The notes under the pieces were generated by a model. That model made no database searches. It was not told the origin of the DNA and saw only the letters and a list, made by a program, of their open reading frames with translations. Both the position numbers and the translations under genes were made by a program. Below, piece by piece: positions 9,574 through 34,102 of a DNA stretch of 64,000 nucleotides; within the stretch, counting starts at the first letter, position 1; every line of letters begins with the position of its first letter. This DNA is from an uncultured bacterium (GTDB taxonomy: Bacteria; Cyanobacteriota; Vampirovibrionia; Gastranaerophilales; Gastranaerophilaceae), in the NCBI GenBank assembly GCA_949284985.1, contig CASDWY010000012.1, positions 1 through 64,000 on the forward strand, in the 5' to 3' direction.

Positions 9574-9690
9574 GAAGAAAAGACCCCTACATCTTAATAC
9601 TAAAAACCAGCCTCAATCGCGCTGTCTGTTTGATTTTTTATTAAATTTTCCCCGTCTCAATGTCCCAGAAACCTATTACCCAGAAACCTA
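9574..9690 (+). repeat. partial copy of the 210-bp repeat
   Basis: About 100 bases (AGAAAAGACC ... GTCTCAATGTCCCAGAAACC) match the second half of the tandem repeat units at 31026-31444. The last part repeats CCCAGAAACCTA twice. It has an open frame in one direction, but the sequence is better explained as a repeat. Confidence 0.75.
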
Positions 9691-9710
9691 CTAATTGGAA
9701 AGGACTATTT

Positions 9711-9755
9711 TTGCAATAAAAAAGAAGTCAATGATGACTTCTTTTTAAATGGTGG
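9711..9755. repeat. direct repeat copy 1 (terminator plus tRNA 3'-end-like sequence)
   Basis: AAAAAGAAGTCA-ATGA-TGACTTCTTTTT (9719-9746) followed by AAATGGTGG. The same block occurs at 31518-31554 and at 33995-34031, where it is the terminator and CCA end of the tRNA-Ile gene. It marks the left end of the first cassette. Confidence 0.8.
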
Positions 9756-9873
9756 TGCAGAAGTTACAAAGTTAGAACTTATAATCAATAAATTTATTGA
9801 AAATGTTCGCACTTTTGAACTGTTTGAACTTGGCCGAATGATTGATTGTATAAATTTGAGAAAAGTTGCCTAG
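9718..9873 (+). CDS. left-end small reading frame L, copy 1
   Basis: The frame NKKEVNDDFFLNGGAEVTKL ... ELGRMIDCINLRKVA ends at 9873 and is 75-85 percent identical to the one at 31526-31672. Most base differences fall at third codon positions (GTT/GTC, CGC/CGT, GGC-CGA/GGT-AGA, GCC/GCT), which suggests protein-level selection. No ATG, GTG or TTG starts it here, and its first codons lie inside the terminator-like direct repeat. It may be a decayed gene or rely on an upstream start that is restored when the cassette is rearranged. Function unknown. Confidence 0.4.
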   Translation, partial: KKEVNDDFFLNGGAEVTKLELIINKFIENVRTFELFELGRMIDCINLRKVA

Positions 9874-9925
9874 TGTCATATGAGTAAACAGTGTAAAAAT
9901 TTTTATTTCGATGTATTTATATGAT

Positions 9926-10372
9926 ATGACTAATGATGATAAATTTAAAATAAATTTTACTAATAAAGAATGTATCGACATACTTGAGGCATTTTATTGG
10001 GGGACAAAAAAAATTTGTCCATATTGCAATTCTGAGAATCATAGTTTAAGAATAATAAAAAACAGAGAAATTAATATATATCATTGTAACAACTGTAACA
10101 CTGATTATACAGTTTTAGTTAATACAATATTTCAAAATACTAAATTACCGTTAACAAAGTGGTTTGAAACGATTTTATTAACTACACAATCAACAAAAAA
10201 AATTTCCGCAAGACTTTTGGCACATAAAATATGCGTAACAAAAGATACAGCATTAAGATTAATAAAAAATGTTGAAAATTTTGATGCAAAAGAGGAGTTT
10301 ATTCAAATACTGGAAGAAAGAACTAAAAAAGAAAGGATAATCAATGACCAAAAAACAAGAAAAACAAACTGA
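9926..10372 (+). CDS. zinc-ribbon protein resembling IS1595-type transposase N-terminus (cassette 1 cargo)
   Basis: A 148-aa protein with a four-cysteine ribbon, CPYCNSE...YHCNNCNTDY, followed by VLVNTIFQNTKLPLTKWFET. This pattern is typical of the N-terminal domain of IS1595/ISXO2-family transposases, where it binds the end of the element. The DDE catalytic domain is absent and the remainder (SARLLAHKICVTKDTALRLIK) looks like a helix-turn-helix, so it is probably a stand-alone DNA-binding protein. A start at 9911 is also possible. Its 3' end overlaps the P63C gene by 29 bases, so the two are one unit. Confidence 0.7.
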   Translation: MTNDDKFKINFTNKECIDILEAFYWGTKKICPYCNSENHSLRIIKNREINIYHCNNCNTDYTVLVNTIFQNTKLPLTKWFETILLTTQSTKKISARLLAHKICVTKDTALRLIKNVENFDAKEEFIQILEERTKKERIINDQKTRKTN

Positions 10373-11306
10373 AACATTAAAAGCCCTTTATCGTGGCAAA
10401 TTACCTATTGGTGGTGTTGAATTAGATTGTGCCGTTCTGAATGATAATACTAGAATTTTAACTACTTCATCTATATTTCAAGCCTTTAAGCGTGGATATA
10501 GTAAAGGTTGGTATAGAATAGAACGAAAAATTAAAGTTGAAAATGAATTAAAAAAATATTTCCCCGAATATAATTTGATGCAACCTCCCATTTTTCTTGA
10601 TAGTTTATCGTTAATTCCCTTGGTAAATCAAGATTTATTTAGTTTGATGCAACCAATTAAATACTTAGACAATAAACAAGAAAAAGAAGGATACAATGCT
10701 AATGTTTTGGTAGAACTATGTAATTTATATTTAGAGGCAAGAAGAACAGGTGTTTTAAATCATCAACAAAAGCATTTAGCAGAACAAGCTGAAATTTTAC
10801 TTGCATCATTCGCAAAAGTTGGTATTATTGCCCTTATTGATGAAGCAACTGGTTTTCAATATGATAGAAAGCATGATGCTTTACGTATATTATTAGAACA
10901 ATACATTGCAGACGGTTTGCAAAAATGGGTCAAAAAATTTCCTGATGAGTTTTTTACACAACTAGACAAGTTATATCAGAACGAGAAAACAACATCAAGA
11001 ACAAGACCTAAATATTATGGCTTATTTATAAATAAATATATTTATGAACCGATTGAAAATGGATATGTAAAACAAGAATTGGACAAAATGAATATAAAAG
11101 AAGATGGAAAAAGAAAAGCTCGTTTTCATCAATGGTTAACTGAATTTGGCAATGGCCAATTAACATTACAAATCGGGCGAGTAATGGGGGTTATGGAAAT
11201 TTCAACAAGTATTAGGACATTCAAGGAAAAAATTAACCGACAAAAAAAATTGGCAATTCAGCCTGAACTTTTCGACACTGAAGAATTCAACAAAGAGCAA
11301 GTATAA
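10344..11306 (+). CDS. P63C-domain protein (cassette 1 cargo)
   Basis: A 320-aa protein containing the P63C domain: AEQAEILLASFAKVGIIALI, then DEATGFQYDR and LEQYIADGLQKWVKKFPDEF (about residues 145-210). P63C proteins are found on phages and mobile elements near antirepressor-type genes; biochemical role unknown. The first 60 residues (ALYRGKLPIGGVELDCAVL ... RILTTSSIFQAF) fit the N-terminal region common in this family. AAAGGATAATCA precedes the ATG at 10344, inside the end of the zinc-ribbon gene. It lies between the conserved left and right ends of the cassette. Confidence 0.8.
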   Translation: MTKKQEKQTETLKALYRGKLPIGGVELDCAVLNDNTRILTTSSIFQAFKRGYSKGWYRIERKIKVENELKKYFPEYNLMQPPIFLDSLSLIPLVNQDLFSLMQPIKYLDNKQEKEGYNANVLVELCNLYLEARRTGVLNHQQKHLAEQAEILLASFAKVGIIALIDEATGFQYDRKHDALRILLEQYIADGLQKWVKKFPDEFFTQLDKLYQNEKTTSRTRPKYYGLFINKYIYEPIENGYVKQELDKMNIKEDGKRKARFHQWLTEFGNGQLTLQIGRVMGVMEISTSIRTFKEKINRQKKLAIQPELFDTEEFNKEQV

Positions 11307-11363
11307 AAATAGTGCTATTTTATGTTCTCCTTTCTAGTATTGAAATAGAAAGGAGAACATCTT

Positions 11364-11594
11364 ATGACAACAAAGAAACCAAATTTTATTGTTAAATTTG
11401 ACAATTCTAACCCAACAGAGGAAGAAAGAGCAAAAGCTATTTGTGATTTAATTTTATGTTTAATGAAATTATCAGCAAAGCAAGAGGCTAAGAAGTTTAA
11501 AACTAAAAATGAGCAAAAAGAATACGAACAAAATTTCTCTAATTTCGCCTCAAAAGCCTTATGTGACAATAATTTTGACGATAAAAAGCAATAA
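11364..11594 (+). CDS. right-end small protein R, copy 1
   Basis: A 76-aa charged protein (MTTKKPNFIVKFDNSNPTEE...), with AGGAGAACATCTT before the ATG. It is about 93 percent identical to the protein at 33649-33876. In both places it is the last gene of a cassette and is followed by the same tail. No recognised domain; the middle (AICDLILCLMKLSAKQEAKK) is an amphipathic helix. Conservation at the end of cassettes with different cargo suggests a role in cassette maintenance or movement, but this is inference. Confidence 0.75.
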   Translation: MTTKKPNFIVKFDNSNPTEEERAKAICDLILCLMKLSAKQEAKKFKTKNEQKEYEQNFSNFASKALCDNNFDDKKQ

Positions 11595-11686
11595 AATTAT
11601 GTTCGAACTTCTAAAACTCGCATTATTATTGTGTTTTGACGATTGATTGTTTTTGGTGTCTGCCTTGTTTGAACAGGTGCAGAGCG
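11595..11686 (+). repeat. right-end tail of cassette 1, truncated
   Basis: AAATTATGTTCGAACTTC through CTTGTTTGAACAGGTGCAGAGCG matches 33877-33972 downstream of the second R gene. The match stops at 11686, just before the terminator/CCA block found in the other copies, so this end has been cut. Confidence 0.75.
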
Positions 11687-14994: not shown

Positions 14995-15534
14995 ATGAAC
15001 ATAGTACAACCTATAAAAAAGATAGAAGACATCCAAAAGATTAAAAAATATCTTGCAAAAAAGCCAAGAAATGCACTGCTTTTCAGCTTTGGGATAAATA
15101 CAGGACTCAGGATATCGGATATTCTTTCTCTTGATGTTGGGGATGTAAAAGACAAGGATTATATTGAAATCAGAGAGAAAAAGACGAACAAGTATAAGAA
15201 ATTTCCGCTTAATAGGTTTTTGAAAGAGGAGATTGATTTATTTGTAGAGGGTTTGGCGAGTGAGCAACCGCTTTTTTATACTCAAAAACATTGCAGACTG
15301 GATAGAGCACAGGCGTATAGGATTTTAAATAAAGCCGCACAAGCAGCAAGGATAGCCGAAAAGATTGGCACACATACACTAAGAAAAACCTTTGGCTACC
15401 ATCATTATAAAAAATATAATGATATAGTACTCCTGCAAAAAATCTTTAACCATTCCTCGCCATCAGTAACACTTCGCTACATCGGCATCGAACAAGATAC
15501 CATCAACGAAAGTTATATGAATCTTTATTTATAG
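14995..15534 (+). CDS. core-domain-only tyrosine recombinase
   Basis: A 179-aa protein with the full catalytic set of phage-integrase/Xer enzymes: Arg in NTGLRISD (about 39), HTLRKTF (His-x-x-Arg, about 127-130), HSSP (His, about 152) and the nucleophile Tyr in RYIG (about 162). It lacks the N-terminal SAM-like core-binding domain. Short recombinases of this type often sit beside type I specificity genes and shuffle TRDs. A mutated copy of its C-terminus lies before RM system 1 (5317-5484). It is convergent with a nuclease-helicase gene 16 bases away. Confidence 0.85.
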   Translation: MNIVQPIKKIEDIQKIKKYLAKKPRNALLFSFGINTGLRISDILSLDVGDVKDKDYIEIREKKTNKYKKFPLNRFLKEEIDLFVEGLASEQPLFYTQKHCRLDRAQAYRILNKAAQAARIAEKIGTHTLRKTFGYHHYKKYNDIVLLQKIFNHSSPSVTLRYIGIEQDTINESYMNLYL

Positions 15535-26378: not shown

Positions 26379-26777
26379 TTATTCCATACCTAAAATTTCG
26401 CGCTCAATTTGACGGATGAAGTCCGGTGAGAGTTCTTTTTTGCTTGGTGATGTTTTGTTTGGCGTTTCTAGTTCTTTCAATTCGGGTAACAATTTTAAAA
26501 TATTCACTAGCGAATAATATTCAGCCTGGCTTATTGGGATTTCTTGTTGTTTGCTGTTTGAAATCCTAGCCATAAGTTTTTGGGCAAATTTTTGAAAATC
26601 CTCTTTAAATTGAGTTTTGTCATACATAGCTTCTTGCAGCTTTTTATCCCAATCATATTTCTTTTTCCAGTAAAACAAAGTTCTTTTGACAATATCGAGT
26701 TGCAAAGAGATTTCACTAACGGATAATCCCTTTAGATACATTTGTTCGGCTTGTTTAAATAATTTCATTTTACTCAT
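26379..26777 (-). CDS. HTH protein of the Mu-like transposition operon (terminase-small-subunit/DUF1804-like)
   Basis: A 132-aa protein starting with an HTH of the phage terminase small subunit or insertion-element type: AEQMYLKGLSVSEISLQLDI then VKRTLFYWKKKYDWDKKL. The remainder is helical (ISQAEYYSLVNILKLLPELKEL). DUF1804-like proteins of this build occur in Mu-type phages. There are no head or tail genes here, so it probably serves transposition or its regulation. Its ATG overlaps the stop of the previous gene (TAATG). Confidence 0.7.
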   Translation of the reverse strand: MSKMKLFKQAEQMYLKGLSVSEISLQLDIVKRTLFYWKKKYDWDKKLQEAMYDKTQFKEDFQKFAQKLMARISNSKQQEIPISQAEYYSLVNILKLLPELKELETPNKTSPSKKELSPDFIRQIEREILGME

Positions 26778-27337
26778 TAAATACCCTCAAAAATTAAGTT
26801 TTCTATCCCAAAATGGTTTTTATCCTGCACTTTTTTTACCTGATAAACACAAGTTCTGTCAATCACCCCAAGGTGTTGAAAATACTTTAGCAACTGGTTT
26901 AGAAGTGCCATTGTATTTTTAATTCTGCGAGGCTTTAGGCGTCTTAATTCGCACACCTTAAAAAGTTCTTTTATTGATTCAATATCAATTTCGTGCAGGT
27001 AATAGCAATTCAAAAACGGCAGGATATTAAAGTTAAATATTGCATTATAATTTCTGTAAGTCTCGAATTTGCAATACTTTTTGACATAATTTTTCATAAA
27101 ATAATCTTTGGCGTCTTCAATACTGATTTTCAGGTGTTTATTCTTTTGTGGGCAGAATATTTCATAATTTTCTCCCGCCTTGGGTTTATCATTATATTTA
27201 TAAATTTCGTTTTCAAAAAATATTTTATTGCTGTTCAAAAGTTGTTCAAGTTTTGTTTTACAATCGCATTCTGCTATCAATTCAATATCATCAAGGGTAA
27301 ATTCTTTTAAATGTTTTGTTAATCGTTCTATATTCAT
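26777..27337 (-). CDS. helical protein of the Mu-like transposition operon
   Basis: A 186-aa protein (MNIERLTKHLKEFTLDDIEL...), starting at 27337 where GAAAGGACAAC gives a proper ribosome site; the upstream in-frame codons belong to a structured leader (E3). It is lysine-rich and helical, with a C-terminal RRLKPRRIKNTMALLNQLLK that resembles the core-binding domain of tyrosine recombinases or a DNA-binding helix bundle. Function unknown; conserved position between the ATPase and the HTH gene suggests a transposition accessory factor. Confidence 0.6.
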   Translation of the reverse strand: MNIERLTKHLKEFTLDDIELIAECDCKTKLEQLLNSNKIFFENEIYKYNDKPKAGENYEIFCPQKNKHLKISIEDAKDYFMKNYVKKYCKFETYRNYNAIFNFNILPFLNCYYLHEIDIESIKELFKVCELRRLKPRRIKNTMALLNQLLKYFQHLGVIDRTCVYQVKKVQDKNHFGIENLIFEGI

Positions 27338-27350
27338 GTTGTCCTTTCGT

Positions 27351-27446
27351 CTTGGATTATTCGGGGTGTCGGCAGAGTAACGTCTGACCGACACCTTACG
27401 GGCTGGGTTCGCTTTCGCTCACACGGCACCCTACCGAAAATCCGCT
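27351..27446 (-). repeat. structured repeat element E3 in the operon junction
   Basis: In gene direction it starts at the TGA of the ATPase gene, runs GCGGATTTTCGGTAGGG, an inner hairpin with a GAAA loop, CCCGTAAGG, a second hairpin GGTGTCGG...CCGACACC, and ends CCGAATAATCCAAG just before the ribosome site of the next gene. Arms GATT/TTCGG and CCGAA/AATC close it. It is the homolog of E4 (9481-9573) with different loop sequences. Confidence 0.75.
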
Positions 27447-28127
27447 TCATATAATTTGCTCCATAACTTCTTTTGTAATTTCTTCTAAATTATTTTCTTT
27501 TGCAAAACTTTCAAGTTTGCTTATAAGCTGTACTATTTGTCTGAACCTATTGTATTTTTTGTGGATATATTCTATCGAATCAGGGGTAAACGGTATTTCA
27601 GATAGTTGGCTAAAAATTTGGCTCAAATCTTCTATTTCAAAGGTTTCAAATTTTACAATCTCACTAAATCTGTCATACAGGTGTTTGTATCTTTCAAGTT
27701 TTCTAAGAGCCAAGCCCATTCCAACAAAGATTATCGGGCAATCGGTTTTATCGTGTATATCTCTTAGGGTTTCGACACTTTTGTAATTGTTCATCAAGTA
27801 GTCGATTTCATCTACAAAAATAATTTTTGGCTTTTGAATAAGTTTGCTAATCACTACATTAAAGTTGTCCGAGGTCAAATATCGAGGAAGTTCGTCCATT
27901 TCCCTAACAATTTCTTCAACAAGCCACCTGCTTGTCATAAGATTTGAGGCTCGAATATAAATCCCGTCATACTTGCAGGCTAGCCAAAGTGCCGTTTGAG
28001 ATTTTCCAAGCCCCGGCTCACCATATATAAGTCCCATTTTAGGAATGTTTTTAGGTTTGCTTTTCAGGGCTTCAACTAAGCCTATAAAATTCCTTACATT
28101 TCGAGTTTTTATAAAGATTTTTTTCAT
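27447..28127 (-). CDS. MuB/TnsC-like transposition ATPase
   Basis: A 226-aa AAA ATPase: Walker A GEPGLGKSQTA (about 36-46), Walker B KIIFVDEIDYLMNN (about 104-117), sensor region PIIFVGMGLALRKLERY, arginine-rich end. MuB-type ATPases choose target DNA and activate the transposase; many give target immunity. It follows the transposase gene across the structured element E1; AAGAAAGGATAAA precedes the ATG. The compact length without the N-terminal HTH of phage MuB fits transposons rather than phage Mu. Confidence 0.88.
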   Translation of the reverse strand: MKKIFIKTRNVRNFIGLVEALKSKPKNIPKMGLIYGEPGLGKSQTALWLACKYDGIYIRASNLMTSRWLVEEIVREMDELPRYLTSDNFNVVISKLIQKPKIIFVDEIDYLMNNYKSVETLRDIHDKTDCPIIFVGMGLALRKLERYKHLYDRFSEIVKFETFEIEDLSQIFSQLSEIPFTPDSIEYIHKKYNRFRQIVQLISKLESFAKENNLEEITKEVMEQII

Positions 28128-28137
28128 TTTATCCTTT

Positions 28138-28195
28138 CTTGGTTGCTCGCAATAAACGGGTATGGTTTCACCTTAGACCCTCTGCTCGCAATCCG
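28138..28195 (-). repeat. structured repeat element E1 in the operon junction
   Basis: In gene direction it begins right after the TAG of the transposase: CGGATTGCGAGC, AGAGGG, a small GGT-GAA-ACC hairpin, CCCGTTTA, GCGAGCAACC, then AAGAAAGG of the next gene. Outer arms GG-TTGC and GCAA-CC pair. E2 (30963-31025) has the same core blocks AGAGGG and CCCGTTTA but different, fully complementary arms. Confidence 0.7.
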
Positions 28196-30007
28196 CTATT
28201 CATATAAAAGTTTGTACTCCTTTGTTTGTTTAAATTCTGCAATCCAAGTGTCGCTTGGGTTATGTTTTATTAAATATTCGTACTTTTCTGAATTGTTTTT
28301 GAAAATCGGGAGTGATTTTTCTCCGTTGTTTATTTTTTGAACACCATTTGAACGAGGCTTGAACTTATTGTCACCCTGAACTTGTTTCAGGGTCTCTGGT
28401 GTTGCAGATTCTGAAATAAATTCAGAATGACATTCTAAAAATTTTATTTCATCGTTAGTCAATAATTTTTTAACTGAATTTATAGTTTTTCTTTTCAGTT
28501 TTTGTTGTTTTTGAATTTTTTGTTTGTAATCCTCTAAATCCTCAACCGTTCCTAAAAGCTTTGCCATCGGGTGGGTTTCTGTTACTCGCTCTGCTGTGCA
28601 TAAGTATTCACCTTTCGGGGTAAAAACTTTTACATTAGTTAGATCAAATAGGTTGTATTTTACTAAAACTTTTCCTCTCAGCCCGTATAGTCTTTCGTCA
28701 AAATAATCGCAGTTCAAGAACCTTACGCCGTTTCGCTGAATTGTTTTGACTTCAGTTGCCAACATCAAATCGTCAAGCAAGCTTTTATCAATATTCTGTT
28801 TATTTCGATTTTCTAAAACCTCTGCGATTGTCATATTCGGTGCATTTGTGCAGGGCTGAGAGTTCTTGAACTTAAGCCACACATCAATCATTTTCATTGT
28901 TTCTTCTATAGTTGGGATATAATCTTGGTGTAAGTTTTTATGAAATTTTTCGTTTCGTTTCAAGTATGCGGGTTTATTGATAATTGATGAGCCGACATAA
29001 CTTGGCATTAGCTTTTCAAAGCCTTCTTGAAATTCTTTGAAGAACCTCTCAATAACTTTTGACCTTGCATTATATGGTCTTGCAAATACCGTTTCAATCC
29101 CGAGTTTTGCATAAAGCCCATAAAAGCCTAATTCTCCAAATCCTTTGTCATCTGTAAAATACTTTGCTCTAAATGCTCTGCCGTTATCTTGATAGACAAT
29201 TTTCGGTATCATATCAAGGTTTATTATTGCGTTTCTTAGTGCACTTGCGATACATTGGGTGTTTTCTTCAAGCATAATTTCATAACCGACCAGTGCTGTT
29301 GATTTCCAGTCCAAAAATCCGACTAAAGTTGCTCGACAAGGCTTGCCCGTAAACGGATTAATCACTTGAAACGCAAGTTTGTGACCGTCTGCGACCAAAA
29401 TATCCCCAACATCAAGCAGGCTAGCGTCCCTTTTAATATATGGTTCGACTTTGTCTGAAAGTGCTTTTTCACCATCTCTAGCAAGCACCCATTTGTCGTA
29501 ATTATTGTCCTTAAACCATTTTGCGTAGCGTCTGAATGTAATATCTGCAGGTATGAAACTTTGACCTTGTTCTTTGAGCTTGTATTTAGTAAGTGCGATT
29601 GCTTTGCCGATACAAATTCTATTTGGGTGCAGGAGCAAGCCCATAAATATTTTGATTTCTTCATCTGTTAGACATGTTCTGTATTCATTCACAGAAACAT
29701 ATTTGTAATTAGGGATTAACCTTGTATAATCCTCTGTCCCGTCTAAACTGGCTTTCCAACGATGCAGGCTTCCTCGTGAGATTTTACCTAAAACACTGAA
29801 AAGGTAGGAATTTGAACTATTATGCAGTTTGACAAAATCATAGTCTGCTTGAAGTTTGTTTACTGCTTTACGGCGGAATTCCTGCCATTTGCGGATTAAA
29901 TCAAGTTTTGCAAGAGCATTTTGTTTTGCCTTCTCAGGGGTGTATTTGATTGTCTCAACTTGGTTTTTCATTGTCTCAAAATCCTTGTAATGCCTTGTGC
30001 AACACAT
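28196..30007 (-). CDS. Mu-type DDE transposase (MuA-like)
   Basis: A 603-aa transposase. The rve-type catalytic core has Asp in GDILVADGHKL, Asp in KIVYQDNGRAF and Glu in SKVIERFFKEFQ, followed by the beta-barrel C-domain (VRFLNCDYFDERLYGLRGKV). The N-terminal third is helical DNA-binding. It starts the leftward operon with the MuB-like ATPase. Two starts are possible (30007, or Met13 at 29971 with AAGGA upstream). Near the C-terminus a palindromic repeat inserts the peptide SEFISESATPETLKQVQG in frame. The element is probably a Mu-like transposon, not a phage, as no structural genes follow. Confidence 0.9.
   Translation of the reverse strand: MCCTRHYKDFETMKNQVETIKYTPEKAKQNALAKLDLIRKWQEFRRKAVNKLQADYDFVKLHNSSNSYLFSVLGKISRGSLHRWKASLDGTEDYTRLIPNYKYVSVNEYRTCLTDEEIKIFMGLLLHPNRICIGKAIALTKYKLKEQGQSFIPADITFRRYAKWFKDNNYDKWVLARDGEKALSDKVEPYIKRDASLLDVGDILVADGHKLAFQVINPFTGKPCRATLVGFLDWKSTALVGYEIMLEENTQCIASALRNAIINLDMIPKIVYQDNGRAFRAKYFTDDKGFGELGFYGLYAKLGIETVFARPYNARSKVIERFFKEFQEGFEKLMPSYVGSSIINKPAYLKRNEKFHKNLHQDYIPTIEETMKMIDVWLKFKNSQPCTNAPNMTIAEVLENRNKQNIDKSLLDDLMLATEVKTIQRNGVRFLNCDYFDERLYGLRGKVLVKYNLFDLTNVKVFTPKGEYLCTAERVTETHPMAKLLGTVEDLEDYKQKIQKQQKLKRKTINSVKKLLTNDEIKFLECHSEFISESATPETLKQVQGDNKFKPRSNGVQKINNGEKSLPIFKNNSEKYEYLIKHNPSDTWIAEFKQTKEYKLLYE
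28369..28433. repeat. palindromic repeat inserted in the transposase gene
   Basis: ACCCTGAA...TTCAGGGT and TTCTGAA...TTCAGAA form two hairpins within 65 bases. The translation, with ESATPETLKQVQGD, is the classic in-frame reading of dispersed palindromic elements known from many genomes. The reading frame is kept. Confidence 0.8.
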
Positions 30008-30027
30008 TCATCACTCGTTTTGAGACA
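29951..30027. promoter_or_regulatory. TGTCTCAA motif cluster at the transposase start
   Basis: TGTCTCAA occurs at 29951 and 29972 and inverted (TTTTGAGACA) at 30018-30027. The same octamer begins the conserved part of the 210-bp repeats (GTCTCAATGTCCCAG at about 31210 and 31420) and of the partial copy near 9650. Such repeats would suit transposase binding sites or an operator; neither is shown. Confidence 0.45.
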
Positions 30028-30063
30028 GAAGTCAAGTGGGGGTAAATATAAATATAAAAAATA

Positions 30064-30399
30064 TTATTTCCAGTAAACTTTGAAATTTTCAATTTCTTCA
30101 AGAGTTTTGTGATAATCCCCTTTGAAACAAAGCGTCCTATCATCAATATAAAGATAAGACGGCAATTTTACATTAGTAACATCTTTAAAAAATTTATCTA
30201 AATTATTATTAATTAGCCGTTTAGTTGCTAGCATCAAGTTTCTTGATGTAAAAAGATACAATTCAGCACTTTGAGATAATGTTTCTAAAAACTCATAAGC
30301 TCCGACCTTAATTTCAGGAATATGATTTTCACTAAACGTATCTTTTCCGTATTCATTTAGTACGCCGTCTAAATCTATAAGTATCTTTTTAGTGAACAT
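30064..30399 (-). CDS. small HAD-superfamily phosphatase, copy 2
   Basis: A 111-aa near-duplicate of the protein at 3632-3967, with the same HAD motifs ILIDLDGVL, LYLFTSRN and YIDDR. Differences concentrate in residues 18-26 (GKDTFSENH against GKENFNENY), plus Arg for Trp near 62; elsewhere the DNA is almost identical. It is again divergent from two XRE genes. It lies 56 bases from the transposase start. Role unknown; duplication with its regulators suggests a mobile module. Confidence 0.8.
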   Translation of the reverse strand: MFTKKILIDLDGVLNEYGKDTFSENHIPEIKVGAYEFLETLSQSAELYLFTSRNLMLATKRLINNNLDKFFKDVTNVKLPSYLYIDDRTLCFKGDYHKTLEEIENFKVYWK

Positions 30400-30428
30400 T
30401 TACAATAAGCCTCTTAAATTTCTTAAAT

Positions 30429-30482
30429 TTGCATGTATGCAAAATTTAAACGCATAATAGCATTAAAATTGCATGTATGCAA
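30429..30482 (+). promoter_or_regulatory. twin TTGCATGTATGCAA operators and promoter
   Basis: Two identical 14-bp palindromes lie at 30429-30442 and 30469-30482. CATAAT at 30453-30458 between them is the likely -10 box. The start codon of the XRE gene (30477) is inside the second palindrome, so repressor binding would cover both the promoter and the translation start. Confidence 0.75.
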
Positions 30483-30689
30483 GATACTGAATTAAAGAAA
30501 TTAGGTAACCATATAAAAACCTTAAGAAAAAAACGAAAACTTACTATTAGTGCATTATGTTATAAGAATGGTCTTGAACCATCCACAATAAGCAGAATAG
30601 AAAAAGGATTGGTTGAGCCTAAATACCTTACACTATTAAATATTGCCAATGCTTTTAATTTGACTTTGGCTGAGTTTTTAAATTTTTAA
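30477..30689 (+). CDS. XRE-family regulator B1
   Basis: A 70-aa Cro/C1 protein: LGNHIKTLRKKRKLTISALCYKNGLEPSTISRIEKGLV is the HTH and FNLTLAEFLNF the tail, the latter identical to that of XRE A2 (4250-4468). The ATG at 30477 lies within an operator palindrome and about 12 bases after the expected transcript start, without Shine-Dalgarno. The next XRE gene follows immediately (TAAATG). Confidence 0.85.
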   Translation: MQDTELKKLGNHIKTLRKKRKLTISALCYKNGLEPSTISRIEKGLVEPKYLTLLNIANAFNLTLAEFLNF

Positions 30690-30899
30690 ATGAGTCAAGA
30701 TATTAGACAAATATTAGCAAATAATATTAAAAATCTGCGAATAGAGAAAAAGTTAAGCAGGGAAGAATTATCTTTAGTTTTAGGAGTTGATAATTCTTAT
30801 GTTTCAAAACTTGAAAAAGGTAAAATAAATATTACTTTAGATAAAATTGAAATGCTAGCCAATTATTTTGAAACAGAAGTATATTTATTATTAAAATAA
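30690..30899 (+). CDS. XRE-family regulator B2
   Basis: A 69-aa Cro/C1 protein (LANNIKNLRIEKKLSREELS, then LVLGVDNSYVSKLEKGKINI), ending FETEVYLLLK. Its start abuts the stop of XRE B1, implying translational coupling. Together with the HAD gene it repeats the architecture at 3.6-4.5 kb, but the two XRE pairs differ in sequence. Confidence 0.85.
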   Translation: MSQDIRQILANNIKNLRIEKKLSREELSLVLGVDNSYVSKLEKGKINITLDKIEMLANYFETEVYLLLK

Positions 30900-30937
30900 A
30901 TCTCATTGATAATTTAGGGTATCCCAATTTGTAAGCA

Positions 30938-31138
30938 AAAATAAAATTGCACTTTTTTGCACTTCTCTTGTTTGTCGGCGTTAAACGGGCACGCTTCGCT
31001 TCAGCCCTCTGCCGACAAGCCGCTCTTGCACTGGGTTTAACTTCAAACACCAAGGCGATTTGAGCCTAATGTGGTTTTAAATTTTTGCAAATGGAGTGCA
31101 AAAGAGTGCAAAAAATGAGTATATGAGTGCAAGAAAAG
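30938..31138. repeat. cluster of GAGTGCAA-type short repeats
   Basis: TTGCACT occurs at about 30946, 30957 and 31026, and its complement AGTGCAA repeatedly at about 31096-31130 and again in the second 210-bp unit (about 31305-31345). The iteron-like spacing surrounds element E2. The 600-base interval 30900-31477 holds these repeats, E2 and the tandem units, and no convincing gene. Confidence 0.5.
30963..31025 (-). repeat. structured repeat element E2
   Basis: Read leftward: AGCGGC, arm TTGTCGGC, AGAGGG, hairpin with GCGAAGC, CCCGTTTA, arm GCCGACAA, then ACAAGAGAAG. The outer arms are perfectly complementary. It has the same core blocks as E1 with a different arm sequence. It is not next to a recognised gene stop. 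Confidence 0.7.
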
Positions 31139-31444
31139 ACCGGTACATCTCAATACTAAAAAACAGCCTCAATCGTGCTGTCTGTTTGATTTTTTATTAA
31201 AGTTTCTCTGTCTCAATGTCCCAGAAACCTATTAATTGCACTGGGCTTAACTTCAAACACATAGCCAATTTGAGCCTAATGTGGTCTTAAAAATTTGCAA
31301 ATGGAGTGCAAAAGAGTGCAAGAAAAGAGTACTTGAGTGCAAGAAAAGACCGGTACATCTCAATACTAAAAAACATCCTCAATCGTGCTGCCTGTTTGAT
31401 TTTTTATTAAATTTTCTCCGTCTCAATGTCCCAGAAACTTATTA
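31026..31444. repeat. tandem pair of about 210-bp repeats
   Basis: Unit 1 is 31026-31235 and unit 2 is 31236-31444; both begin TTGCACTGGG and end GTCTCAATGTCCCAGAAAC followed by CTATTA or TTATTA. A third fragment, CTCAATGTCCCAGAAACC, follows at 31445. Part of the unit recurs at 9574-9690. Each unit contains two to three GAGTGCAA motifs. It resembles the end of a mobile element or a replication or partition site. Confidence 0.8.
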
Positions 31445-31465
31445 CTCAATGTCCCAGAAACCTAT

Positions 31466-31554
31466 TATCTGCCTTGTTTGAACAAGTGCAGAGCCCAAAA
31501 GCCGCATTTTGACAATAAAAAAGAAGTCAATGATGACTTCTTTTTAAATGGTGG
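31466..31554. repeat. direct repeat copy 2 (cassette junction)
   Basis: CTTGTTTGAACAAGTGCAGA (a palindrome CTTGTT-TG-AACAAG at the start), GCCGCATTTTGACAATAAA, then the terminator hairpin 31518-31545 and AAATGGTGG. It matches 33949-34031 next to tRNA-Ile and, from the hairpin on, 9711-9755. It separates the long accessory stretch from the second cassette. Confidence 0.8.
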
Positions 31555-31672
31555 TGCAGAAGTTACAAAGTTAGAACTTATAATCAATAAATTTATTGAA
31601 AAAGTCCGTACTTTTGAAATGTTTGAACTTGGTAGAATGATTGATAGTATAAATTCTAAAAAAGTTGCTTGA
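31478..31672 (+). CDS. left-end small reading frame L, copy 2
   Basis: A 64-codon frame with a TTG start at 31478; the conserved part begins at NKKEVNDDFFLNGGAEVTKL and ends GRMIDSINSKKVA. It is the counterpart of 9718-9873, with mostly synonymous changes between them. The first third runs through the direct repeat, so expression would start within or before the terminator hairpin. It may be real only after cassette joining. Confidence 0.4.
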   Translation: MNKCRAQKPHFDNKKEVNDDFFLNGGAEVTKLELIINKFIEKVRTFEMFELGRMIDSINSKKVA

Positions 31673-31867: not shown

Positions 31868-32515
31868 ATGAAGTTTAACCAAGAGCAAATCATTCAAAAA
31901 GTAGCACCTCATTTTGGAGAGCTAACACGCATTATTAAGCAAGCCCATTCATATTTTATTAAACAGGCTGCTATAACCGGGGCAGATTATACTGGCGTGA
32001 CCTATGCTTGGATTATGCAAAAAAATATAATTGATTTGCTTTCTAAATCTTATATTATAACTAAAAATATTGGCAAGCTAGTTCCATATTTCAATATTAC
32101 ATTACTGGAAATAGATGGGTTTTTAATTAGTTTTAACAAAATTAATAACAAAAAGCAAAAATCAAAAGATATAGAAATTCAAAATAAAATTATAATAAAT
32201 GAAAATCATCTAAAACAATTAAGAATTTTTTCAGATGATAACGAAAATAATGATATAGAAGTAACAGAATCGGCACCTTTAACCGCTGGGTACATTGTAA
32301 AAGATGCAAAAATTGCAGAAACTTATTTAACACATCAAATAGGTAAAACTGTTCACTGGTATGAAAATATGTCTAATTTTGACTCAATAACATTGCCGTT
32401 TAAACAATTACAAAATACTAATAATATTTACAATAGAACCAAGAGAAGAATCAAAAATAAAAATTGCGTTAAAAGCGACAATGTAATAGAGTTAAAAAGT
32501 AGTATAGATAACTAA
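31868..32515 (+). CDS. unknown protein paired with XRE-ImmA peptidase (cassette 2 cargo)
   Basis: A 215-aa protein without a recognised domain. The first 90 residues are helical (KVAPHFGELTRIIKQAHSYF, then a tyrosine- and lysine-rich stretch), and the C-terminus is basic (NRTKRRIKNKNCVKSDN). AAAAGGGGAGAAATC precedes the ATG. It is 13 bases upstream of the XRE-ImmA gene. ImmA-type peptidases usually cut a partner repressor or toxin, so this protein may be that partner; inference only. Confidence 0.6.
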   Translation: MKFNQEQIIQKVAPHFGELTRIIKQAHSYFIKQAAITGADYTGVTYAWIMQKNIIDLLSKSYIITKNIGKLVPYFNITLLEIDGFLISFNKINNKKQKSKDIEIQNKIIINENHLKQLRIFSDDNENNDIEVTESAPLTAGYIVKDAKIAETYLTHQIGKTVHWYENMSNFDSITLPFKQLQNTNNIYNRTKRRIKNKNCVKSDNVIELKSSIDN

Positions 32516-32528
32516 TAATAAATTTACT

Positions 32529-33593
32529 ATGGAAAAAATAAATCATAATAAAATAATAATTGCTAGAGAATATAGAAAAATTAAGCAATCAAAATTATTA
32601 GAAATATTAAATAAAAAATATTCGATAAAAATAACACAAAGTGACCTTTCAAGAATCGAAAAAGGATATAAAGTTAATATTTCACAAGAACTTATAACTG
32701 CAATTTCTGAAATATTAGACTTTCCGCCAACTTTCTTTTATATGGAAGGGGATATAATTGATGTAAAACTATCATTGTTTAGAAAACGTCAAAAACTAAA
32801 AAGTTCCGACATATCATTTATTCTTGGAAGTGTCAATATTTTTGTTGATATTTGCAATCTTTTATTAAACGATACAAAAGAACTCAATATAGATGTTCCT
32901 TATTTTCCAATTGAAAAATATAAAAATCCTGAACAAATTGCAAGAGCATTAAGGATTCATTGGAATATTCCGCAAGGACCAATAATGAATTTAACGGAAA
33001 TCATGGAAGATAACGGCATAATAATTAACTATATAGACCCAAATACAAAATATTTTGATGGCTGTTCATATACAAAATATGGACTTTATTTTGTATTTAT
33101 AAACCCTAATATGCCAGGAGACCGCCAAAGATTTACATTGGCGCATGAGCTTGGGCATATTATAATGAAGAATTCGTCAAGTCCAATTAAAGAAAGTGAG
33201 AACGAGGCAAATCGTTTTGCTGCAGAATTTTTAATGCCTGAAATTGAAATAGGATATAATTTAAAAAAAATTGACTTAGAAAAAGCTTGTTATTTAAAAC
33301 CTTACTGGAAAGTTTCAATTGCTGCTATTATAAGAAGAGCCTTAACCTTAAAATATATAAACCAGGCAAGATATAAATCTTTATGCAGTTATATGGCGCA
33401 GAAGGGTTACAATACAAAAGAACCATTTGATATTCCTAAGGAAATACCGACTTTATTTAAGGAAATTATTGACATATATAGAAAAGAAGATAATTTAAGT
33501 TACGATAAAATTGCCCAAATGACTCATATACTAAAAATTGAATTATTAAAGTTTTATAATCCTCAAATGAACAAAATCGCAAGAGTGTCATAA
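32529..33593 (+). CDS. XRE HTH fused to ImmA/IrrE metallopeptidase (cassette 2 cargo)
   Basis: A 354-aa protein. The N-terminal HTH (IAREYRKIKQSKLLEILNKK ... LSRIEKGYKVNIS, 10-60) is followed by a linker and a zinc peptidase with FTLAHELGHIIM (HExxH near 212) and a downstream ENEANRFAAEFLMP motif carrying the third ligand. ImmA/IrrE enzymes cleave or derepress phage-type repressors and control stress or element excision. Here both functions are on one chain. It ends 55 bases before the right-end R gene. Confidence 0.85.
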   Translation: MEKINHNKIIIAREYRKIKQSKLLEILNKKYSIKITQSDLSRIEKGYKVNISQELITAISEILDFPPTFFYMEGDIIDVKLSLFRKRQKLKSSDISFILGSVNIFVDICNLLLNDTKELNIDVPYFPIEKYKNPEQIARALRIHWNIPQGPIMNLTEIMEDNGIIINYIDPNTKYFDGCSYTKYGLYFVFINPNMPGDRQRFTLAHELGHIIMKNSSSPIKESENEANRFAAEFLMPEIEIGYNLKKIDLEKACYLKPYWKVSIAAIIRRALTLKYINQARYKSLCSYMAQKGYNTKEPFDIPKEIPTLFKEIIDIYRKEDNLSYDKIAQMTHILKIELLKFYNPQMNKIARVS

Positions 33594-33648: not shown

Positions 33649-33876
33649 ATGACAACAAAGAAACCGAATTTTATTGTTAAATTTGACAATTCAAACCCAA
33701 CAGAGGAAGAAAGAGCAAAAGCCATTTGTGATTTAATTTTATGTTTAATGAAATTATCAGTAAAACAAGAGGCTAAAAAATTTAAAACTAAAAAAGAGCA
33801 AAAAGAATACGAGCAAAATTTTTCTGATTTTGCCTCAAAAGCCTTATATAACAACAATTTTGATGATAAAAAATAA
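33649..33876 (+). CDS. right-end small protein R, copy 2
   Basis: A 75-aa protein nearly identical to 11364-11594 (five substitutions), preceded by AGGAGGATAAATTA. It is the last gene before the tRNA-Ile and in the same relative place as in the first cassette. The surrounding non-coding sequence is also conserved on the downstream side but not on the upstream side, showing that cargo, not the ends, has been exchanged. Confidence 0.75.
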   Translation: MTTKKPNFIVKFDNSNPTEEERAKAICDLILCLMKLSVKQEAKKFKTKKEQKEYEQNFSDFASKALYNNNFDDKK

Positions 33877-33994
33877 TAAAATTATGTTCGAACTTCTAAA
33901 ACTCTCGTTATTATTGAGTTTTGACGATTGATTGTTTTTGGTGCCTACCTTGTTTGAACAAGTGCAGAGCGCAAAAGCCGCATTTTGACAATAA
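33877..33994 (+). repeat. right-end tail of cassette 2
   Basis: AAATTATGTTCGAACTTC, the imperfect stem AAAACTC...GAGTTTT, CTTGTT-TG-AACAAG (33949-33962) and GTGCAGAGCGCAAAAGCCGC lead to the terminator at 33995. It matches 11595-11686 and, in its second half, 31466-31517. Confidence 0.75.
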
Positions 33995-34022
33995 AAAAAG
34001 AAGTCAATGATGACTTCTTTTT
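33995..34022. terminator. tRNA-Ile terminator, direct repeat copy 3
   Basis: AAAAAGAAGTCA (33995-34006) and TGACTTCTTTTT (34011-34022) form a 12-bp perfect stem with an ATGA loop. It lies three bases beyond the CCA end of the leftward tRNA gene, and so ends its transcript; the T-run is present on both strands. Identical stems occur at 9719 and 31518. Confidence 0.9.
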
Positions 34023-34025
34023 AAA

Positions 34026-34102
<77 letters not shown>

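Follow-up and report, generated by a model that had tools for sequence, protein, structure and literature searches.

Small integrase-less gene cassettes at the 3' ends of tRNA and tmRNA genes in Gastranaerophilales and their probable mobilization in trans

What kind of element keeps both of its ends while exchanging the genes between them? The question is raised by a stretch of 64,000 nucleotides (the window), part of a 1.78-Mb Gastranaerophilales genome, in which two segments, copy 1 and copy 2, begin and end alike. A sequence-only reading of the window had described copy 1, at 9711-11686, as a cassette with fixed ends, and the gene order that it gave is correct: a terminator, a conserved left end (L), a zinc-ribbon gene, a P63C gene, a small gene R, and a shared tail. 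Its two ends had to be redrawn. On the left, the L frame belongs to the end but the terminator does not, the boundary being the TGGTGG at 9750. On the right, R and the shared tail are present, but the end is not intact; it is cut at 11686 and has no contact with a tRNA gene now. The features of copy 1 are as follows.

9716-9749, + strand: bidirectional terminator left of copy 1, a displaced flank (hairpin -13.0 kcal/mol; stem as in copy 2)
9750-9873, + strand: left end L, consisting of the boundary TGGTGG and a conserved ~118 nt, with a start-less 40-codon frame ending in a stop
9911-10372, + strand: cargo, zinc-ribbon protein (Pfam Zn_ribbon_IS1595, E=4.5e-7)
10344-11306, + strand: cargo, P63C-domain protein (P63C, E=1.2e-18)
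11364-11594, + strand: R gene, 76 aa
11595-11686, + strand: right tail, truncated; terminator and tRNA junction absent

Copy 2 carries, as had been claimed, the same ends around two genes unrelated to the cargo of copy 1. The L ends of the two copies are 93% identical over 163 nt and their R segments 93% identical over 323 nt. Copy 2 is an intact unit at a tRNA-Ile gene. It is surrounded by a 38-nt exact direct repeat (terminator plus TGGTGG) with a spacing of 2477 bp, far beyond chance, and the right copy of the repeat runs into the 3' end of the tRNA gene at 34026-34102 on the - strand.

31469-31548, + strand: left over from a previous unit at this tRNA, right tail and terminator, on the left side of copy 2
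31549-31672, + strand: left end L, boundary TGGTGG at 31549
31868-32515, + strand: cargo, 215-aa protein without a family match, beside an antitoxin-like gene
32529-33593, + strand: cargo, HTH and ImmA/IrrE (M78) protein (PADLOC RmrA, E=2.2e-57)
33649-33876, + strand: R gene, 75 aa, predicted helical
33877-34025, + strand: right tail (with TTGTTTGAACAAG) and unit-supplied terminator
34026-34031, - strand: junction TGGTGG, complement of the tRNA 3' end CCACCA
34026-34102, - strand: tRNA-Ile(GAT), the insertion target

A search for R and L in related genomes, the check that the sequence-only reading had proposed, returned many L-cargo-R units with varied cargo, mostly directly at tRNA genes. That reading had named two outcomes that would speak against it, ends confined to this strain or always enclosing the same cargo; the ends occur in other genomes too and the cargo is not constant. 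The R protein search gave 16 loci on species-representative contigs, and an R profile, with many decayed copies among its matches, hit 70 of 383 genomes from 23 of 41 genera. The L-end DNA search gave about 20 close matches of this end type, type A, among 383 family genomes of several genera; in plasmids no L was found. The genomes compared are mostly draft MAGs, in which several L ends lie at contig ends (those of G269:C48, G180:C10, and G057:C8 among them) and single-MAG species assignments may be wrong (one contig, L022, is labelled Clostridium). The hosts of the cassette family are a group of uncultured gut bacteria, the Gastranaerophilales.

Type-A right ends run into the CCACCA of tRNA-Ile(GAT), Ala(TGC), Val(TAC), Leu(TAG), and Lys(CTT), and a diverged unit adjoins Ala(GGC) at L076. 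A second common end type, type E, has the same plan and is found at tRNA-Val, Leu, Ile, and Ala, with a close type at tmRNA. Additional L types came from a scan for terminator-TGGTGG junctions. Some type-E units adjoin tRNAs without an encoded CCA (AAAAAATGGGCG), so the core in common may be as short as TGG, with the unit determining whether the tRNA encodes CCA. A core of this size is short for a classical integrase and thus counts against a reading as site-specific integration. In tRNA-Ile, the encoded CCA is absent in many species of the family and present in others (L206-L212). Non-coding mini-elements of ~120-190 bp also lie at tRNA-Val 3' ends (L065, L057, L240, L241, and L264); they end in their own terminator and TGGTGG and are stacked with larger units.

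The limits of the unit were read from ends aligned from 15-18 loci. L is near-constant from TGGTGG onward and the terminator on its left varies between most loci; therefore, TGGTGG is taken as the boundary. The right ends in the same alignment carry their own terminator, stop at TGGTGG, and are followed by different tRNAs. The plan of the unit is an L of ~120 nt, the cargo, and a right end made of the R gene, a tail of ~110 nt, and a terminator. No terminal inverted repeats between the L and R ends, such as those of an IS or a MITE, were found at the junctions. The left-flank terminator is sometimes the same as the right terminator inside one genome (the window, L063, L065), which points to an additional role of gene conversion, array history, or homologous recombination. 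R and its tail can differ in ancestry, as in L066/L067, where R identity is 57% and tail identity 90-93%. An AlphaFold2 model of R is helical (mean pLDDT 81), consisting of helices only, and has no PDB match at E<=0.001.

The L end resembles both a reading frame and a tRNA. Its frame stops at codon 39-41 in 19 of 20 distinct copies; the stop codons are of three kinds, and the length changes keep the frame. It shows a synonymous excess (12 vs 5.9 expected, P=0.003) that one antisense frame equals. There is no start codon within the unit. In two related L ends, all 12 of the 12 nt after TGGTGG are identical to the 3' end of tRNA-Val; type E matches at 8-9 of these positions and type A at 3-5. 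L may be a degenerate tRNA 3' end that doubles as the last codons of a gene running across the site, possibly that of a helper integrase. The tRNA T-loop was considered as a target signal and rejected, the sequence T(C/A)GAAC lying 17 nt after TGGTGG in L vs 12 in tRNAs. Because some L ends match tRNA-Val over 12 nt, this sequence in L makes better sense as the fossil of a tRNA end.

The cargo between the ends is diverse. Recognized pairs are the IS1595-type zinc ribbon with P63C, in which the zinc-ribbon protein of copy 1 resembles the N-terminus of an IS1595 transposase and is without the catalytic domain; the HTH-ImmA/IrrE protein (RmrA models) with its 215-aa partner; and a DUF3800 pair. 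Two more pairs of the HTH-ImmA/IrrE type were recognized by inspection. Other units carry SocA_Panacea, NYN, ParE-like with MerR, M78 with a membrane protein, Fic, Abi_alpha, a CAP12-type TIR, a reverse transcriptase with PRTase-CE, DUF6602, GIY-YIG, and several unknowns. Most of these families are known from phage defense or toxin-antitoxin systems, and the cargo, as judged from its families, appears to be mostly defense- or toxin-antitoxin-like. A diverged unit at tRNA-Ala with a reverse transcriptase and a PRTase-CE protein, a retron-like pair, is near-identical in species of two genera (L077, L078, L079).

The earlier description of a modular mobile or defense cassette system holds, by comparison, for modular units with varied cargo at tRNAs; for mobility we rely on inference. 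Its strongest signs are the states of single sites and near-identity across genera, which suggest recent movement of whole units. The locus between a nitroreductase gene and tRNA-Val, compared across related species of one genus, exists in several states: empty in G260 (L265); with only a tRNA-Ala and a terminator between the gene and tRNA-Val in G248 (L261); with a 190-bp mini-element in G172 (L264); with type E in G319 (a unit) and in G037 (a left end at the contig end) (L263, L266); with a type-A Abi_alpha unit and a mini-element in G190 (L260); and with a type-A SocA unit, truncated at its right end, in G224 (L268). Copy 1 itself matches a unit at tRNA-Ala in G311 of genus g36 (L011) with 98.3% identity over 1990 bp, and the match ends near the unit ends; enolase is 82% identical between the window and a species of that genus. 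The unit with M78 and the membrane protein is 98.8% identical between two MAGs. Units also occur in arrays, in which newer units adjoin the tRNA and older ones lie farther out: R' tail, L, R, and tRNA-Leu in L060/L021; a type-C unit at tRNA-Val and then a type-A Fic unit in L063; type A and then type E in L059; and two L ends and two R genes in a row in L244.

Within the window, copy 1 and copy 2 are separated by HipBA, a type I RM system, McrBC, Mu/TniB-type transposon genes, and transposon-end-like repeats. Copy 1 is most simply explained as having inserted earlier at the same tRNA-Ile, before later insertions displaced it and cut it off. Positions 5562-30399 form a dense defense island with two type I RM sets including S subunits, HipBA, a second HipA, a Schlafen-type helicase, and McrBC. 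TniA/TniB-like transposon genes lie within 26379-31465 (Mu-transpos_C at 28196-30007, AAA/TniB at 27447-28127), and the transposon repeat TTAATAGGTTTCTGGGACATTGAGACGG (complement) is present there and within 9590-9705. The same repeat lies ~40-85 nt downstream of tRNA-Ile in relatives (L194, L199, L206, L207, L209, L211), a position that suggests a tRNA-targeted Tn7-like transposon with defense cargo.

Taken as a family, the units are probably small cassettes (~0.6-3.5 kb) without an integrase that are mobilized in trans, as hitchers, to the 3' ends of tRNA and tmRNA genes. The comparison of loci shows that a unit joins the tRNA at CCACCA and gives it a new terminator, that the previous terminator and any units already present end up farther out, and that units stack into arrays. 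No integrase ORF, such as a tycheposon or phage satellite has at one end, was found in any complete unit read. The tyrosine recombinases in four cassette-bearing genomes (G002, G050, G180, G290) are only two each, of XerC/XerD size, so the host need not harbor a dedicated tyrosine integrase. On these two grounds, we infer site-specific recombination in trans by a recombinase that the unit does not encode; its source would most likely be a temperate phage or another helper element. Cargo may in addition be exchanged by homologous recombination through the conserved ends.

Several candidates for the mover were tried and rejected. A 179-aa tyrosine recombinase at 14995-15534 of the window is not a necessary resident mover, as G002, G050, G180, and G290 have only the full-length Xer-size pair. 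It stands alone, consists of the catalytic domain only, and may serve to invert the nearby hsdS genes; similar tyrosine recombinases of 180-200 aa are common in the family, sometimes paired. A large serine recombinase as resident mover is disfavored by the lack of a PF07508 match in G002, G260, G290, G300, and G311, with the caveat that one G002 contig begins inside an apparent large serine recombinase. About 20 integrase-bearing islands of the family were inspected as possible relatives; their tRNA junctions are without type-A ends. Among the loci inspected, there was no integrase-bearing element with cassette ends, and exact patterns found no helper with type-A ends in IMG/VR.

Phages enter the argument through R. 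The R protein search gave no match in viral contigs or phages. In temperate phages (a prophage in G200 and two IMG/VR contigs), however, the gene immediately following a Cro-like one encodes a relative of R, with 56% identity over 34 aa (E=2e-11). This position beside cro suggests that R, as a relative of a phage early protein, may act in excision or in interaction with the helper. These phages sit at tRNA-Ala, and their serine integrase gene overlaps the tRNA, a junction unlike that of the cassettes, which counts against the main reading. In the family, large serine recombinase genes frequently extend over the 3' half of a tRNA gene (Asp, Arg, Glu, His, Asn, Ala; L277-L293), and their C-terminus is thus read from antisense tRNA sequence.

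The alternatives differ in whether the units move and in what would move them. It is very unlikely that L and R are ancestral flanks at tRNA ends between which only the enclosed genes swap by homologous recombination, the unit staying put. L and R are long and similar enough for such recombination, and mosaics of R and tail exist; however, the empty site in a sister species and the presence of one unit, at 98% identity, at different tRNAs in different genera largely refute it, and the patchy presence of close type-A L ends (about 20 of 383 genomes) and the arrays with several L and R ends point the same way. That the units are non-mobile or decayed remnants of integrase-bearing islands after integrase loss, similar to a CIME, would fit the many decayed R copies, the truncation of copy 1, and the likeness of L to a degenerate tRNA 3' end, complete over 12 of 12 nt after TGGTGG in the two units that match tRNA-Val. 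Independent losses, however, would not yield dozens of units that share one compact L-cargo-R plan and have ends 95-100% identical across genera, and recent transfer of integrase-less units argues against it as well, which makes this origin quite unlikely.

Two other alternatives are specific forms of trans mobilization. A satellite of temperate phages, excised and packaged with a phage that supplies the integrase, with R as a captured early protein serving as directionality factor or helper hijacker, is conceivable but somewhat unlikely: the R relatives after Cro-like genes in phages with a serine integrase at tRNA-Ala and a cargo like the defense cargo of satellites speak for it, whereas the units have no packaging or replication genes, type-A ends are absent from IMG/VR by exact-word search, and the phage integrase gene overlaps the tRNA and does not end at CCACCA. 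Movement by the host XerC/XerD, as for dif modules, we regard as highly improbable. Of the tyrosine recombinases, only the XerC/XerD pair occurs in every cassette-bearing genome checked, and a 6-bp central region would fit, but the junction arms TTTTTAAA / TGCAGAAG, or the variable tRNA acceptor stems, look un-Xer-like by eye, and the tRNA arm is variable.

Tycheposons, PICMIs, and other such satellites encode an integrase. The cassettes, in contrast, are without one, and their packaging by a helper is hypothetical. What they share with these elements is small size or association with tRNA genes, defense cargo, and dependence on a helper, as hitchers (PMC11389934, PMC10803314). CIMEs and IMEs at tRNA genes have att-like direct repeats at the tRNA 3' end and tandem accretion and, in CIMEs, no integrase (PMC5704250, PMC7563491); copy 2 likewise has its 38-nt direct repeat at the tRNA 3' end and no integrase between the ends. 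Compared with CIMEs and IMEs, the cassettes are far smaller and recur as a family in which R is conserved and one end type uses several tRNAs. The dif (pdif) modules of Acinetobacter similarly carry accessory and toxin-antitoxin genes without their own recombinase and are shuffled in trans, but they use XerCD sites on plasmids, with 28-bp dif-like sites in opposite orientation, whereas the cassettes use chromosomal tRNA 3' ends and direct-repeat sites (PMC6449649). CALIN and integron cassettes are likewise small, lie in arrays that contain no recombinase, insert at one defined end, and combine fixed recombination ends with exchangeable cargo. The cassettes described here appear to end in a terminator, TGGTGG, and a tRNA or tmRNA 3' end, not in the attC sites on which an IntI integrase acts, and they differ in carrying their own small R gene and in having many chromosomal target genes; no IntI was seen, and of six window proteins scanned only the 14995-15534 recombinase matched integron-integrase models, weakly and far below the cut-offs.

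In kind, the units would belong with the trans-mobilized elements that lack a recombinase, that is, CALIN cassettes, dif modules, CIMEs, and hitchers (PMC11389934, PMC6449649, PMC5704250). What is new is the target, several tRNA and tmRNA 3' ends, the arrays of defense cassettes there, and the R and L ends. In the open literature, subscription journals being mostly outside this coverage, no description of such units in Gastranaerophilales or Melainabacteria was found. A bolder proposal, which we consider unlikely, is that of a tRNA-anchored analogue of the integron: a recombination system would recognize the generic tRNA or tmRNA 3' end and assemble arrays of integrase-less immunity cassettes, with R as a phage-derived directionality factor and L encoding the C-terminal tail of the helper integrase. 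Such an origin would account for an L that is kept as a coding tail but has no start codon.

As probable trans-mobilized cassettes, the units offer a repeatable form in which defense and toxin-antitoxin genes may enter and leave tRNA-linked islands without their own integrase and at several tRNA targets. The R gene or the terminator-TGGTGG-L junction provides a simple search tag for new defense genes, and the cassettes make the question of what moves integrase-less islands testable. In the Gastranaerophilales, they have the look of plug-in immunity modules that some helper would move.
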